Shown here: in pieces, positions 58,952-64,000 of the stretch
Layout: each line of letters opens with the position of its first letter
How positions within the stretch are numbered: position 1 is the first letter of the stretch
NCBI RefSeq assembly: GCF_900188205.1
Contig: NZ_FZOH01000001.1
Location: 468,359-532,358 of the forward strand
DNA length: 64,000 nt
Reading direction: 5' to 3'
From: Geodermatophilus saharensis
GTDB lineage: Bacteria; Actinomycetota; Actinomycetes; Mycobacteriales; Geodermatophilaceae
Notes under the pieces: model-generated
What the model saw: the letters and a program-made list of their open reading frames with translations, nothing else
Told to the model about the DNA's origin: nothing
Database searches by the model: none
Program-made: the position numbers and the translations under genes

Positions 58952-59286
58952 GCGCGCGGGCGCCCGGGCAGCCGCGGCTCCCGGGCGCCCGCACGGCCCG
59001 CCCCGACCCCGCGGACGTCGACGAGGCGGTCTTCGACGTCGTCGAGCGGATCCCGCCGGGGCGGGTGAGCACCTACGGTGCGATCGGCCGGCTCGTCGGC
59101 GTCGGCCCCCGGCGGGTCGCCCGCGCGCTGTCCTCGGGTGGGGCGGCGGTGCCCTGGTACCGGGTGGTGCGCGCCGACGGCACCTGCGCCGAGCCGGTGC
59201 GGGTGGAGCAGCTCGCGCGCCTGGCGGCCGAGGGCGTGCCGGTGCGCGGTGGGCGGGTCGACCTCGCCGCGGTGGCCTGGCCCTGA
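58948..59286 (+). CDS. Alkyltransferase-like (ATL) protein, MGMT family
   Basis: 112 residues from a GTG overlapping the previous stop. The DNA-binding half of O6-alkylguanine-DNA alkyltransferase is present: [38 protein letters not shown] (HTH with the Arg finger). The reactive PCHRV motif reads PWYRV, with Trp in place of the acceptor Cys. That is the mark of ATL proteins, which bind alkylated bases and hand lesions to nucleotide excision repair. The N-terminal 20 residues are Arg/Pro-rich. It lies directly before adnA, as in mycobacteria (Rv3204 region). Confidence 0.9.
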
Positions 59287-59291
59287 GCCGA

Positions 59292-59356
59292 GCGCGGGGT
59301 GTGCACACCGCGCGGCCGGCAGGGCTCGTCGGCCGCGCTGCGTGCACATCCCGCGC
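59292..59356. repeat. 65-bp long imperfect palindrome after the ATL gene
   Basis: Starts 5 nt after the stop. The left arm begins GCGCGGGGTGTGCACACC and the right arm ends GTGCACATCCCGCGC; both are near-complementary over almost the whole length. The perfect palindrome GGTGTGCACACC (59298-59309) is embedded. RNA would form one long hairpin, so terminator or REP-like repeat. Confidence 0.65.
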
Positions 59357-59410
59357 GGGCGTGACCGACGGCTCCGCGACGGTGTCGGCTCCGCGTGGTG
59401 TCATCGGGAG

Positions 59411-62400
59411 GTGGCACTGCGGGGGGACGAGTCGGGGCCGGTGTACCGGCTGGTGCAGCCGGCGGCGCCGCCGGCGCCCCCGCCGCGGCTCGACCCGACC
59501 CAGCGGGCCGTCGTCGACCACCCCGGCGGGCCGCTGCTGGTGCTGGCCGGCCCCGGCACGGGCAAGACGACGACGATCGTCGAAGCGGTCGCGGCGCGCA
59601 TCGAGCGCGGCGTCGACCCCGAGCAGGTCCTCGTCCTGACCTTCAGCCGGCGGGCCGCCGCCGAGCTGCGCGACCGCGTCACCGCGCGGGTCGCCCGCAC
59701 CATCCGCGAGCCGCTGGCCCGCACCTTCCACTCCTACGCCTACGGGGTGCTGCGCCGCGCGGCGCTGCTGCGCGGGGAGGCCCCGCCCCGGCTGCTCACC
59801 GCCGCCGAGCAGGACGCCGTCGTCGCCGAGCTGCTGCGCGGTGACCTCGCCGGCGAGGGCGCGGTGCGCTGGCCGGCCTCACTGCTGCCGGCGCTGTCGA
59901 CCGCCGGGTTCCGCGACGAGCTGCGCGACCTGCTGCTGCGGGCCACCGAGCGCGGGGTCGGCCCGGAGACGCTGGCCGGGTGGGCCCGCGAGACCGGCAC
60001 CGAGGCCTGGCTGCACGCGGCGGCCTTCCAGGAGCAGTACGAGGCGGTCACGGCGTTCTCCACCGCCGGTGGCGGCGACGCGTCCGGCTACGACCCCGCC
60101 GAGCTGGTGCGGGCCGCGATCGCCGAGCTCGAGGACGACCCCGCGCTGCTGCGCGCCGAGCGCGACCGCGCCCGCTGGCTGTTCGTTGACGAGTACCAGG
60201 ACACCGACCCCGCGCAGGTGGAGCTGCTGCAGCTGCTCGCCGGCGGCGGCGGGGACCTCGTCGTCGTGGGCGACCCCGACCAGTCGATCTACGCCTTCCG
60301 CGGCGCCGAGCCCCGCGGCATCGTCGAGTTCCCCGACCGGTTCCGCACCGTGACCGGCCGGCCCGCACCGCGGCTGTCCCTCGGCGTCTCCCGGCGCTCG
60401 GGCCCGGCGCTGCTGGCCGTCAGCCGCCGGGTGGCCGAGACGCTGCCCGGGCCCTGGGAGCACCGGCGGCTGGCCGCCGCCGAGGGCGTCGACGAGGGCG
60501 CCGCGGAGGTCCACGTGTTCGGCTCGGCGGCGGTCGAGGCGGCCTACGTCGCCGACACGCTGCGCCGGGCGCACCTCGTCGACGGCGTCGCGTGGTCGCA
60601 GATGGCTGTGGTGGTGCGCACCGCGCTGGCGATCGGGCCGCTGCGGCGCGCGCTCACCGCGGCCGGCGTCCCGGTCGAGGTCGGCAGCGACGACCTCCCG
60701 CTGGCCGCGCAGCCCGCCGTCGCGCCGCTGCTGGCCGCGCTCACCGCGCTGCTGCCCCGGCCCGGCGACGAGCCCGGCGCGCTCGCCCTCGACGAGCCCG
60801 GCGCCGAGGCGCTGCTGGCCTCCGCGCTCGGCAACGCCACCGTGCTCGACCTGCGCCGGCTGCGCCGCGCGGTGCGCATCGCCCAGGCGCAGCGCGGCGT
60901 CGACGCCGACGAGCGCGGCGCGCCGCTGGCCACCGCGCTGGCCGACGAGGCGCTGCTGGAGGAGCTGCCCGAGGCGGTCGCCCGTCCGGCCCGCCGGGTG
61001 GCCGGTGTGCTGGCCGCCGGCCGCGTCGCGCTCGCCCGCGACGGCTCGGCCGAGGACGTGCTCTGGGCGATGTGGCAGCGCAGCGGCCTGGCCGGCCGCT
61101 GGGCGAGGGCCAGCGCCGCCGGCGGGGCGGCCGGTGCGGTCGCCGACCGCGACCTCGACGCCGTCGTCGCGCTGTTCGACGCCGCCGCCGGCTTCGTCGA
61201 CCGGCTGCCCTCGGCCACCGTCGCCGCGTTCGTCGAGCACCTCACCGCCCAGCAGCTGCCCGGTCTCGACGACGCCGGCCGCGGGTCGGTGGCCGACGCC
61301 GTCCGGCTGCTCACCGCGCACGCCGCCAAGGGCCTGGAGTGGGACGTCGTCTGCGTGGCCGGGGTGCAGGAGGGCATCTGGCCCGACCTGCGCGACCGCG
61401 GCACGCTGCTGGGCGCCGAGCTGCTCGTCGAGCGGGTGGCCGGCATCGACGGCGCCGTCGTCGACCGCCGGGTGCAGCTGCTGGCCGAGGAGCGGCGGCT
61501 GTTCTACGTCGCCTGCACCCGTGCCCGCCGCCGGCTGGTGGTCACCGCCGTCGAGGGCGCCCTCGACGGGCCCGACGCAGGCGCCACCGCCTCCCGCTTC
61601 CTCGACCTCGTCGCCGCCCCGCCCGAGGAGGGCCGGCCGCTGACGCCGCTGCCCCGCTCGCTCACCCTGCCCGCGCTGGTCGCCGAGCTGCGGCGCGCGG
61701 TCAGCGACCCGCAGACCGGGCCGGCCCGCCGGTCGGCCGCCGCCGCGGTCCTGCGCCGGCTGGCCGACGAGGGCGTGCCCGGCGCCTCCCCGGCCGACTG
61801 GTGGGGCCTGGCGCCGCTGTCCGACGACGCCCCGCTGGTGCCCGACGGCGAGCCGGTGCGGGTGCGCCCGTCGGCGATCGAGACCTTCCAGCGGTGCCCG
61901 CTCAAGTGGGTGCTCGGCGCGGTCGGTGCGGAGGCCTCGCCCGACAGCTCGCGCACCGTCGGCTCGGCGGTGCACGCCGTGGCGCAGCGGGTGGCCGAGG
62001 GGCTTCCCGCCGCCGAGGCGCGGGCGGCGCTGGCCGAGGAGCTCGACGCGCTCGACCTCGGCCCGGGCTGGGCCGACCAGCGGCAGCGGATGGCCGCCCG
62101 CGACATGCTCGACAACTTCCTCGGCTGGCACGCCGCCAGCCGCCGCGAGCTGCTGGCCGCCGAGGCCGACTTCGACGTCACCGTGGGCCGGGCCCGCCTG
62201 CGCGGGCAGGTCGACCGGCTCGAGCGCGACGCCGCCGGGCGGCTGGTCGTCGTCGACCTCAAGACCGGCCGCACGCCGGCCCGCGACGTCGACACCCACG
62301 GGCAGCTCGCCGCCTACCAGGTCGCCGTGGCCGCCGGCGCGTTCGGCGACCACGGCGACGCCCCCGGCGGGGCCTCGCTGCTGCAGGTCGGCTCGGGGAC

Positions 62401-62599
62401 GAAGGCCAAGGAGCAGGCGCAGGAGCCGCTGCCGGCCGACGTGCCGCTCGCCGGTACCTGGGCCGGGCAGCTGATCGCGCAGGTCGGCGACGGCATGGGC
62501 GCGGCCACCTTCGAGGTGCGCAGCGGCAGCCACTGCGCGCGCTGCCCGGCCCGGCGCAGCTGCCCGCTGCACGAGCGCGGCCGGCAGGTCACCTCGTGA
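59411..62599 (+). CDS. adnA: AdnA: helicase-nuclease subunit of the AdnAB recombination motor
   Basis: 1062 residues from GTG 59411. UvrD-like helicase: LDPTQRAVVDHPGGPLLVLAGPGTGKTTTI (Walker A Lys52), VLTFSRRAAAELRDRV, LFVDEYQDTDPAQVELL (motif II), VVGDPDQSIYAFRGAEP, LTAHAAKGLEWDVVCVAGVQEG and FYVACTRARRRLVVT. A C-terminal RecB-type nuclease follows: ETFQRCPLKWVLG, FDVTVGRARLRGQVDRLERD, LVVVDLKTGRTPA and Cys cluster HCARCPARRSCPL for an Fe-S staple. AdnAB resects double-strand breaks in mycobacteria. The ribosome site overlaps the start codon. adnB follows. Confidence 0.93.
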   Translation: MALRGDESGPVYRLVQPAAPPAPPPRLDPTQRAVVDHPGGPLLVLAGPGTGKTTTIVEAVAARIERGVDPEQVLVLTFSRRAAAELRDRVTARVARTIREPLARTFHSYAYGVLRRAALLRGEAPPRLLTAAEQDAVVAELLRGDLAGEGAVRWPASLLPALSTAGFRDELRDLLLRATERGVGPETLAGWARETGTEAWLHAAAFQEQYEAVTAFSTAGGGDASGYDPAELVRAAIAELEDDPALLRAERDRARWLFVDEYQDTDPAQVELLQLLAGGGGDLVVVGDPDQSIYAFRGAEPRGIVEFPDRFRTVTGRPAPRLSLGVSRRSGPALLAVSRRVAETLPGPWEHRRLAAAEGVDEGAAEVHVFGSAAVEAAYVADTLRRAHLVDGVAWSQMAVVVRTALAIGPLRRALTAAGVPVEVGSDDLPLAAQPAVAPLLAALTALLPRPGDEPGALALDEPGAEALLASALGNATVLDLRRLRRAVRIAQAQRGVDADERGAPLATALADEALLEELPEAVARPARRVAGVLAAGRVALARDGSAEDVLWAMWQRSGLAGRWARASAAGGAAGAVADRDLDAVVALFDAAAGFVDRLPSATVAAFVEHLTAQQLPGLDDAGRGSVADAVRLLTAHAAKGLEWDVVCVAGVQEGIWPDLRDRGTLLGAELLVERVAGIDGAVVDRRVQLLAEERRLFYVACTRARRRLVVTAVEGALDGPDAGATASRFLDLVAAPPEEGRPLTPLPRSLTLPALVAELRRAVSDPQTGPARRSAAAAVLRRLADEGVPGASPADWWGLAPLSDDAPLVPDGEPVRVRPSAIETFQRCPLKWVLGAVGAEASPDSSRTVGSAVHAVAQRVAEGLPAAEARAALAEELDALDLGPGWADQRQRMAARDMLDNFLGWHAASRRELLAAEADFDVTVGRARLRGQVDRLERDAAGRLVVVDLKTGRTPARDVDTHGQLAAYQVAVAAGAFGDHGDAPGGASLLQVGSGTKAKEQAQEPLPADVPLAGTWAGQLIAQVGDGMGAATFEVRSGSHCARCPARRSCPLHERGRQVTS

Positions 62600-62678
62600 G
62601 CGAGCTCGCGACCTCACGCATCGGCACAGCAGCCCGGCGAACGCGGCCTACGAGCGCCAGCGAGGAGGTCTCGTGAGC
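62593..62678 (+). mobile_element. 68-bp insert with 9-bp direct repeats at the adnA/adnB junction (MITE-like candidate)
   Basis: CTCGTGAGC occurs at 62593-62601 and again at 62670-62678, bounding 62602-62669. Each copy contains GTGA: the first GTGA includes the adnA stop (TGA 62597-62599), the second includes the adnB start (GTG 62673-62675). Removing one copy plus the insert restores an ordinary 4-base GTGA overlap. The insert ends GCGAGGAGGT, supplying a new ribosome site for adnB. A 26-codon frame (GTG 62596 to TGA 62674-62676) runs through it. Terminal inverted repeats are weak. Confidence 0.5.
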
Positions 62679-64000
62679 CGTCGCACGCCGGCGCCGCCGG
62701 AGGAGCAGCTCGCCTTCGACGACGACCTCTTCGGCGCGCCGCCCGAGCCGGTCCGGCCCCGCCGGGTGCTCACCCCGGCCGAGGTCGCCGAGCGCTGCGG
62801 CCTGTCCTACGCGCCCTCCGACGAGCAGGCGCGGGTGGTGGCGGCGCCGGCCGACCGGCCGCTGGTCGTCGTCGCCGGGGCGGGGTCGGGCAAGACCGAG
62901 ACGATGGCCGCGCGGGTGTGCTGGCTGGTGGCCAACGAGCTGGTCGCACCCGACGCGGTCCTGGGCCTGACCTTCACCCGCAAGGCCGCCAGCGAGCTCA
63001 ACGAGCGCATCCGCATCCGGCTCGGCGCCCTGGCGCGGCACCCGGAGACCGAGCCGGAGCTGCGGGAGCGGCTGGGCGTCGCGATGCCCACGGTGTCGAC
63101 CTACCACGGCTACGCCGCGTCGCTGGTCAGCGAGCACGGGCTGCGCATCGGCGTCGAGCCCGGCGCCGGCGTCCTCGGGCCTGCCATGTGCTGGGGGCAG
63201 GCGGCGTCGGTGGTGTCGGGCTGGACCGGCGACATGGACGACGTCCCGCTGAGCCCGCTGACCACCGTCGAGGACGTGCTGGCGCTGGCCGGCGAGCTCG
63301 GCGAGCACGACATCGAGCCCGACCGGCTGCGCGCGTGGACCGCGCAGCTGGAGCGGCGGATCACCGGCTACCCCGACGCGAAGGGCAAGCGCGGCCCCTA
63401 CAAGACGGTGCTCGACGTGCTCGCCCGGCAGCGCGCCCGCGTGGCGCTGCTGCCGCTGGTCGAGGCGTTCGAGGCGCGCAAGCGGGCCGCCGGCGCCATC
63501 GACCACTCCGACCAGGTGGCGCTGGCGGCGAGGGTTGCGGTCAGCGCGCCGGAGGTCGGCCGCCGGGAGCGCGCCCGCTGGCGGATCGTGCTGCTCGACG
63601 AGTACCAGGACACCAGCGTCGGCCAGCTGCGCATGCTCGAGGCGCTGTTCGGCCGCACCACCGGGCACCCGGTGCTCGCCGTCGGCGACCCGCGGCAGTC
63701 CATCTACGGCTGGCGCGGCGCCTCGGCCGGGACCATCGAGCGCTTCGACCGCACCTTCCCCGGCACCCGCGGGAAGGAGGCCCAGCGGCTCACCCTGGCC
63801 ACCAGCTGGCGCAACGACGGCGCCGTGCTCGCCGTCGCCAACGACGTCGCCGGGCTGCTGCCGGCACCGCCGGTGCCGCTGCCCGACCTCGCGCCCGCCC
63901 CCGGCGCCGCGCACGGGCTGGTCACGGCCGGGCTCTACTCGACCGTCGCCGAGGAGATCGAGGCGCTGGCCGACCGGCTGGCCGCCTGCTGGCGCGGGGA
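62673..64000 (+). CDS. adnB: AdnB: UvrD-like helicase subunit, N-terminal 442 codons (runs off right edge)
   Basis: Starts at GTG 62673 with GAGGAGG 4-5 nt upstream, provided by the inserted segment. Seen: YAPSDEQARVVAAPADRPLVVVAGAGSGKTETMAARV (Walker A Lys74), VLGLTFTRKAASELNERI (motif Ia), TVSTYHGYAASLVSEHGLRIG, AIDHSDQVALAARV, RIVLLDEYQDTSVGQLRML (Walker B/motif II), VLAVGDPRQSIYGWRGA (motif III) and LTLATSWRN. It is the partner of AdnA (Rv3201c type), with the lead motor and second nuclease. The rest of the helicase and the nuclease domain lie beyond the window. Confidence 0.95.
   Translation, partial: MSRRTPAPPEEQLAFDDDLFGAPPEPVRPRRVLTPAEVAERCGLSYAPSDEQARVVAAPADRPLVVVAGAGSGKTETMAARVCWLVANELVAPDAVLGLTFTRKAASELNERIRIRLGALARHPETEPELRERLGVAMPTVSTYHGYAASLVSEHGLRIGVEPGAGVLGPAMCWGQAASVVSGWTGDMDDVPLSPLTTVEDVLALAGELGEHDIEPDRLRAWTAQLERRITGYPDAKGKRGPYKTVLDVLARQRARVALLPLVEAFEARKRAAGAIDHSDQVALAARVAVSAPEVGRRERARWRIVLLDEYQDTSVGQLRMLEALFGRTTGHPVLAVGDPRQSIYGWRGASAGTIERFDRTFPGTRGKEAQRLTLATSWRNDGAVLAVANDVAGLLPAPPVPLPDLAPAPGAAHGLVTAGLYSTVAEEIEALADRLAACWRG

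Follow-up and report, generated by a model that had tools for sequence, protein, structure and literature searches.

The adnA/adnB junction of Geodermatophilus saharensis (contig NZ_FZOH01000001.1, within positions 468,359 to 532,358 of assembly GCF_900188205.1; this whole stretch of 64,000 nucleotides is referred to as the window) raises the question of what the short insertion between the two genes is and how two coupled genes could tolerate it. With a probability of about 85%, the insertion belongs to a family of dispersed 77-bp mobile elements that resemble the mycobacterial interspersed repetitive units (MIRUs), have no gene for their own movement and occupy start codons of the form DTGANNG (D = A, G or T; N = any base). 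Further copies, filled and empty orthologous sites, a near-constant length, an open relay frame, tandem arrays and internal bases that match the insertion site are all observed. The TGA of the target start codons is often also the stop codon of the preceding gene. The agreement between internal code and insertion site is the new and surprising part.

Distribution of the element

An 86-base segment gives nine blastn matches in the G. saharensis genome, itself and eight others, and the element is therefore more than a chance arrangement. In an alignment of eight copies, each carries a DTGA at either end, spaced by exactly 77. A sequence-only model finds 34 places in this genome at E ≤ 1: ten clear copies at the top of the ranking, then a weak one and, in twelfth place, a shortened one. 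All 26 genomes of the genus have matches at E ≤ 1e-4, from 4 to 90 per genome (up to 150 candidates scored in each), and copies are also carried by Geodermatophilus sp. DSM 45219. Across 298 sampled genomes of the order, 62 have matches at E ≤ 1e-6 (up to 15 candidates scored per genome); by hand count, these are 48 of the 51 genomes in the family of G. saharensis and 14 of the 247 outside it. At E ≤ 1e-5, thirteen of these 14 yield one or two matches each and G167 yields 48. The G167 matches (another family of the order; L195, L208, L213-L223) are of a divergent form, some with agreement between code and flank, such as AGT in L214. The hosts are related soil actinobacteria, and copy numbers per genome range from a few to about ninety. 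The first-pass annotation, made from the window sequence, had proposed a small element without its own gene inserted in the overlap of the two genes; the dispersed copies, and the empty sites described below, bear this out. It had also suggested looking for more copies of the segment with other 9-bp duplications: the segment does occur elsewhere in the genome, but without such duplications, and only DTGA recurs.

Anatomy of the adnA/adnB copy

Two copies of CTCGTGAGC lie at 62593-62601 and 62670-62678, with 68 bases in between and a start-to-start spacing of 77. As previously described, each contains a GTGA with stop or start function: the stop codon of the upstream open reading frame (59078-62599) lies in the left GTGA, and the downstream frame starts with the right GTG at 62673. 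The GAGGAGG motif and the 26-codon bridging frame attributed to the insertion are likewise present. The unit, however, is 77 bp (62596-62672) and not 68 bp, as tandem copies elsewhere have a period of 77. Its ends are drawn from one DTGA to the base before the next; which of the two is chromosomal is not assignable at adnA/adnB itself. No NCBIfam model reached its cut-off for either flanking gene, and the names adnA and adnB are therefore taken over from the first-pass annotation. A search of 62300-63000 for known RNA families gave none at E ≤ 1. The main features, in window positions, are:

62596..62672, + strand: 77-bp element, columns 1-77 (column c = window position 62595 + c), defined by the spacing and by the copies elsewhere
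62596..62676, + strand: relay (bridging) frame, read from the sequence as GTG, 26 codons and TGA, with 4-nt overlaps with the adnA stop and the adnB start
62662..62668, + strand: GAGGAGG, Shine-Dalgarno-like, 4 nt upstream of the adnB GTG and conserved in the alignment of copies
62673..62679, + strand: right junction DTGANNG (here GTGAGCC), columns 78-84, the adnB start codon and next bases, chromosomal by comparison with empty sites
59078..62599, + strand: upstream gene (adnA), UvrD-type helicase with a PD-(D/E)XK nuclease domain
62673..63998, + strand: downstream gene (adnB), UvrD-type helicase, continuing past the window end

Sample of copies

The first 80 regions are the best-scoring among the genus matches listed. 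They give 110 hits, of which 102 have DTGA at both ends 77 apart and were kept; seven without DTGA at both places and one of another length were dropped. From these, 81 single copies were reduced to one per flank group, giving 56 for the first covariation set. A further 40 regions, chosen mostly where the model match stopped at column 82 (an unusual right flank), give 48 hits, of which 39 were used and nine dropped for broken ends or as an inner array copy. Joining 33 of these to the 56 makes a set of 89, with L234, L235, L236, L250, L259 and L262 left out as possible orthologs. Because orthologs remained in this set (such as L238/L244 and L043/L231), all 95 copies were regrouped by flank similarity into a strict set of 79 sites, in which six array loci that may be unrelated are merged. 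The sample is enriched for unusual codons rather than random, and the shuffle controls do not remove relatedness.

Filled and empty sites

The adnA/adnB junction is filled in five of 26 genomes (G000, G005, G012, G001 and G015) and has other content in the stretch read in five (G010, G022, G018, G020 and G023). The remaining 16 are plain DTGA overlaps, the result that the first-pass annotation had named as support when it proposed comparing relatives. Other small inserts at this junction are one 20-bp link in G010 (L121) and two 20-bp links in G022 (L127), and a different GGGGAGGAGGACGGGGTCCTTC-rich repeat lies upstream of adnB in L136, L139 and L140 (G020, G018 and G023).

The cmk/der and folB/folK junctions are each filled in three of 25 genomes. 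At cmk/der, the empty junctions of the close relatives G012, G017 and G005 have an ATG start; among the filled ones, G009 and G001 combine a right-hand ATG with a left-hand GTG, and G010 carries GTG at both ends. The comparison suggests that, at this site, the right DTGA is chromosomal and the left one was brought in. The fhaB copy in G016 has ATG at both ends. At folB/folK, another insert of about 60 bases, CT-rich and then AG-rich, precedes folK and is alike in L167 (G. saharensis), L162 and L164.

Clear copies are present in five of 25 fhaA/fhaB junctions, and those in G016, G020 and G015 sit at the fhaB start codon, 17-18 bases downstream of the fhaA stop. The target is therefore a start codon followed by A and not the overlap itself; insertion into a stop/start overlap, as first proposed, holds at adnA/adnB but is not required. 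The copies have a single orientation relative to the genes. Only DTGA recurs at the element ends, often with SC (S = C or G). Over the 79 sites, the bases left of the element and left of the right DTGA agree only as expected (column 0 with 77 in 51, 50.3 expected; column -1 with 76 in 21, 18.8 expected), and a duplication of upstream context, whether the 9 bp originally claimed or another length, is not supported.

The relay frame

Because 77 leaves a remainder of two when divided by three, the frame opened by the left DTG ends in the right TGA. A ribosome finishing the upstream gene would restart on this frame and then on the downstream gene; with such a relay through 26 codons the insertion would do little harm and the genes would stay coupled. 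The relay frame is open in 78 of the 79 strict-set copies and closed in one, and the upstream frame is closed in 21. Shuffled sequences have a closed frame in about 24 to 26 of the larger set of 89. In 78 of the 89 copies, both flanking frames remain open over 60 codons or as far as the fetched sequence reaches.

At fhaA/fhaB, 24 of 25 genomes have 4-nt overlaps that link stop to start in an unbroken chain, across spacers of 17 to 95 bases and with link lengths of 17, 20, 23, 41, 44, 47, 50, 77 and 95. The genomes are related, and any link extending to the next start must be 2 mod 3; the telling point is therefore that 24 of 25 junctions qualify at very different lengths. Retention of the relay through such different spacers would be a sign of selection on translational coupling itself. 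Five fhaA/fhaB spacers of 44-50 bases (L279, L283, L284, L285 and L288) all retain the relay frame, and those of L279, L283 and L284 look like internally shortened copies of the element. The first-pass annotation had suggested that the insertion changes the stoichiometry of the two subunits. The copies in many unrelated operons and the retained relay frame speak rather for preserved coupling.

An internal code matching the site

Four internal features are involved in the agreement with the flanks:

62595..62601, + strand: left arm, columns 0-6, complementary to columns 23-17, with covariation at 0-23, 1-22 and 5-18 (the 6/17 pair is broken in this copy)
62612..62618, + strand: left internal arm, columns 17-23, covarying with the left arm
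62632..62634, + strand: sense code GCC, columns 37-39, identical to 62677-62679 (sequence and statistics)
62636..62645, + strand: antisense code GGCGAACGCG, columns 41-50, of which 41-43 complement 62677-62679 and the remainder partly complements 62670-62676 (covariation)

The strongest covariations in the 56 insertion groups are those of internal columns with junction columns. Over the 79 sites, columns 37, 38 and 39 equal columns 82, 83 and 84 in 75, 72 and 55 sites (33.8, 53.1 and 35.7 expected), an agreement as high in none of 5000 shuffles, and the next sense pair, 40/85, is at expectation (24 vs 25.3). On the antisense side, columns 43, 42 and 41 complement columns 82, 83 and 84 in 72, 70 and 66 sites (37.4, 52.3 and 44.1 expected). 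Left-side pairing is found in 60 sites for 0/23 (43.0 expected), 75 for 1/22 (66.1) and 72 for 5/18 (34.4), with -1/24 at expectation (15 vs 12.0). Where the second codon is neither AGC nor ACC (24 sites), the internal dinucleotide matches in 17; the expectation is 1.6 from all rows and 4.9 when only the 24 are shuffled, and 20000 shuffles never reach 17. The adnA/adnB copy matches fully (GCC at 62632-62634, GGC at 62636-62638 and GCC at 62677-62679), and fhaB insertions match the local codon form (ACG in G017, G001 and G020; ACC in G016).

Comparison with known systems

MIRUs were reportedly described by Supply et al. in 1997. To our knowledge, how elements of this type find their sites and what mobilises them have been open questions since then. 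The accessible portions of three papers describe MIRUs as dispersed repeats of 40-100 bp (PMC2734929); as having 77-bp units in M. tuberculosis and occurring only in M. leprae and the M. tuberculosis complex (PMC4213456); and as inserting at start codons with an internal open reading frame coupled by a 4-nt overlap, in many mycobacteria (PMC12548453). The present element shares with them dispersal, the 77-bp length, start-codon insertion, the internal frame with its 4-nt overlap and tandem copies. The likeness is one of anatomy, and because the element belongs to another actinobacterial family, Geodermatophilaceae, it is called MIRU-like rather than a MIRU. The same portions of PMC12548453, PMC4213456 and PMC2734929 do not mention a site-matching code. 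A literature search, mostly at title level, gave no description of such elements in Geodermatophilaceae.

The bridge RNA of IS110 elements was found by covariation, and its internal stretches agree with both target strands, according to the part of PMC11208160 that was available. Internal stretches of the 77-bp element likewise agree with both strands of the target; compared with the system as described there, the element has no recombinase gene, and its two stretches lie one base apart instead of on two sides of a loop. Of the 26 genomes, 18 have an IS110 recombinase; it is missing from G020, G012, G016, G022, G007, G008, G011 and G025, where a lost or diverged enzyme is possible; G020 has the most copies, yet is among those without it. 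Reverse transcriptase is found in 12 of 26 genomes. In IS200/IS605 and REP/RAYT (repetitive extragenic palindromes and their associated transposases), junctions pair in a guide-like manner with sequences near the ends, and small non-autonomous forms exist. The 77-bp element resembles these in both respects and differs in that their Y1 transposase (PF01797) is detected in none of the 26 genomes, by a search in which 5 of 14 controls matched. These three enzymes were the mobilisers searched for; other recombinases and DDE transposases lay outside the search.

Evaluation of alternative explanations

Several observations weigh against a mobile element that keeps its neighbours coupled through a relay. 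Relay translation and movement are both deduced from sequence. IS110 recombinase and reverse transcriptase do not follow copy number and are rejected as mobilisers, which leaves no consistent one among the three enzymes searched for. The downstream gene's frame, closed in only 1 of 79 copies, matches the relay frame in openness, an outcome not predicted by the relay model. The fhaA/fhaB junction of G008, with a spacer of 49, is the sole one without a relay. Seven of the 24 unusual second codons are unmatched, the G015 copy at fhaB has code ACG next to ACC, and the folded adnA/adnB copy is not unusually stable (z -0.60). Two other explanations of the insertion as a whole fare far worse. A stationary spacer belonging to the adnA/adnB operon would account for its presence in G000, G005, G012 and G001; it is refuted by the 16 plain overlaps and by the copies in many other operons and throughout the genus, and has practically no chance of being correct. 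Miniature inverted-repeat transposable elements (MITEs) are short, numerous and without a gene of their own, and leave a target duplication of fixed length. The 77-bp element is likewise short, repeated and non-coding and has inverted-repeat arms, but a conventional MITE that depends on a DDE transposase acting in trans is very improbable given the element's exact length, start-codon target, single orientation relative to the genes and lack of a fixed duplication beyond DTGA.

For a mobile MIRU-like element, it remains to explain why code and site agree. The agreement may reflect messenger RNA structure only: hairpins over the relay and downstream starts, opened by the arriving ribosome, would make coupling strict, and changes in codon 2 after insertion would be compensated within the element. 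RNAalifold predicts pairing of columns 42-50 with 75-83 and of 1-6 with 17-22, with changes on both sides, and related-looking orthologous copies differ jointly in code and flank at fliP/fliQ (L070 and L072, alike elsewhere and jointly different at columns 38 and 83) and at cmk/der (L169-L171). The random background for the likeness of such copies mixes subfamilies, and its small proportions overstate common descent. The sense identity of columns 37-39 with 82-84, however, is as strong as the pairing, and in L235 and L241, both AAC sites, columns 37 and 82 are A and column 43 remains G, so pairing alone cannot produce it. The code did not follow the flank in L120 and followed only in part in L171, and the ordinary stability of the adnA/adnB copy also speaks against this explanation, which we consider possible but tentative. 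A second possibility is that insertion writes the code, the target triplet being copied in by template switching or repair as a copy and its complement. Rare codes form no lineages: over 47 other columns, elements with the same code agree in 40.27 and permuted ones in 40.44, a value as high arising in 1265 of 2000 permutations. Nor do target classes separate in the remainder of the element (967 of 2000). These lineage tests are low in power because the columns used vary little, and they conflict with column 45, which tracks target class although no target base accounts for it (A in 24 of 32 G-class copies vs 1 of 57 others) and therefore points to inherited code blocks, such as would choose their sites; a copied code is thus unlikely.

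The last possibility is that the element addresses itself, its DNA or RNA carrying a two-strand address that would pair with the nDTGANNG start context and direct insertion. The address would consist of the sense NNG at columns 37-39, the antisense from column 41 and a further base at 23, and the relay frame would hide the insertion from selection. Placement of the element by base pairing of its internal sense and antisense target copies is much less certain than the relay; it would follow a logic like that of bridge RNA without a recombinase gene of its own, and we regard it as rather doubtful. If it does occur, MIRUs might move likewise. With its numerous copies, its site-matching code and close relatives in which sites are filled or empty, the family makes site choice directly testable.

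Tandem arrays

Arrays of two to four units, mostly with a period of 77, are found at L045, L047, L087, L088, L090, L099, L227, L245, L246 and L264. They resemble MIRU-VNTR (variable number of tandem repeats) loci, and the inner copies in L245 retain the code of the outer right flank. In L039 (677-824), columns 7-38 of the element, 32 bp in all, form a tandem repeat whose units join at ACCG, as though columns 38/39 could serve as an end.
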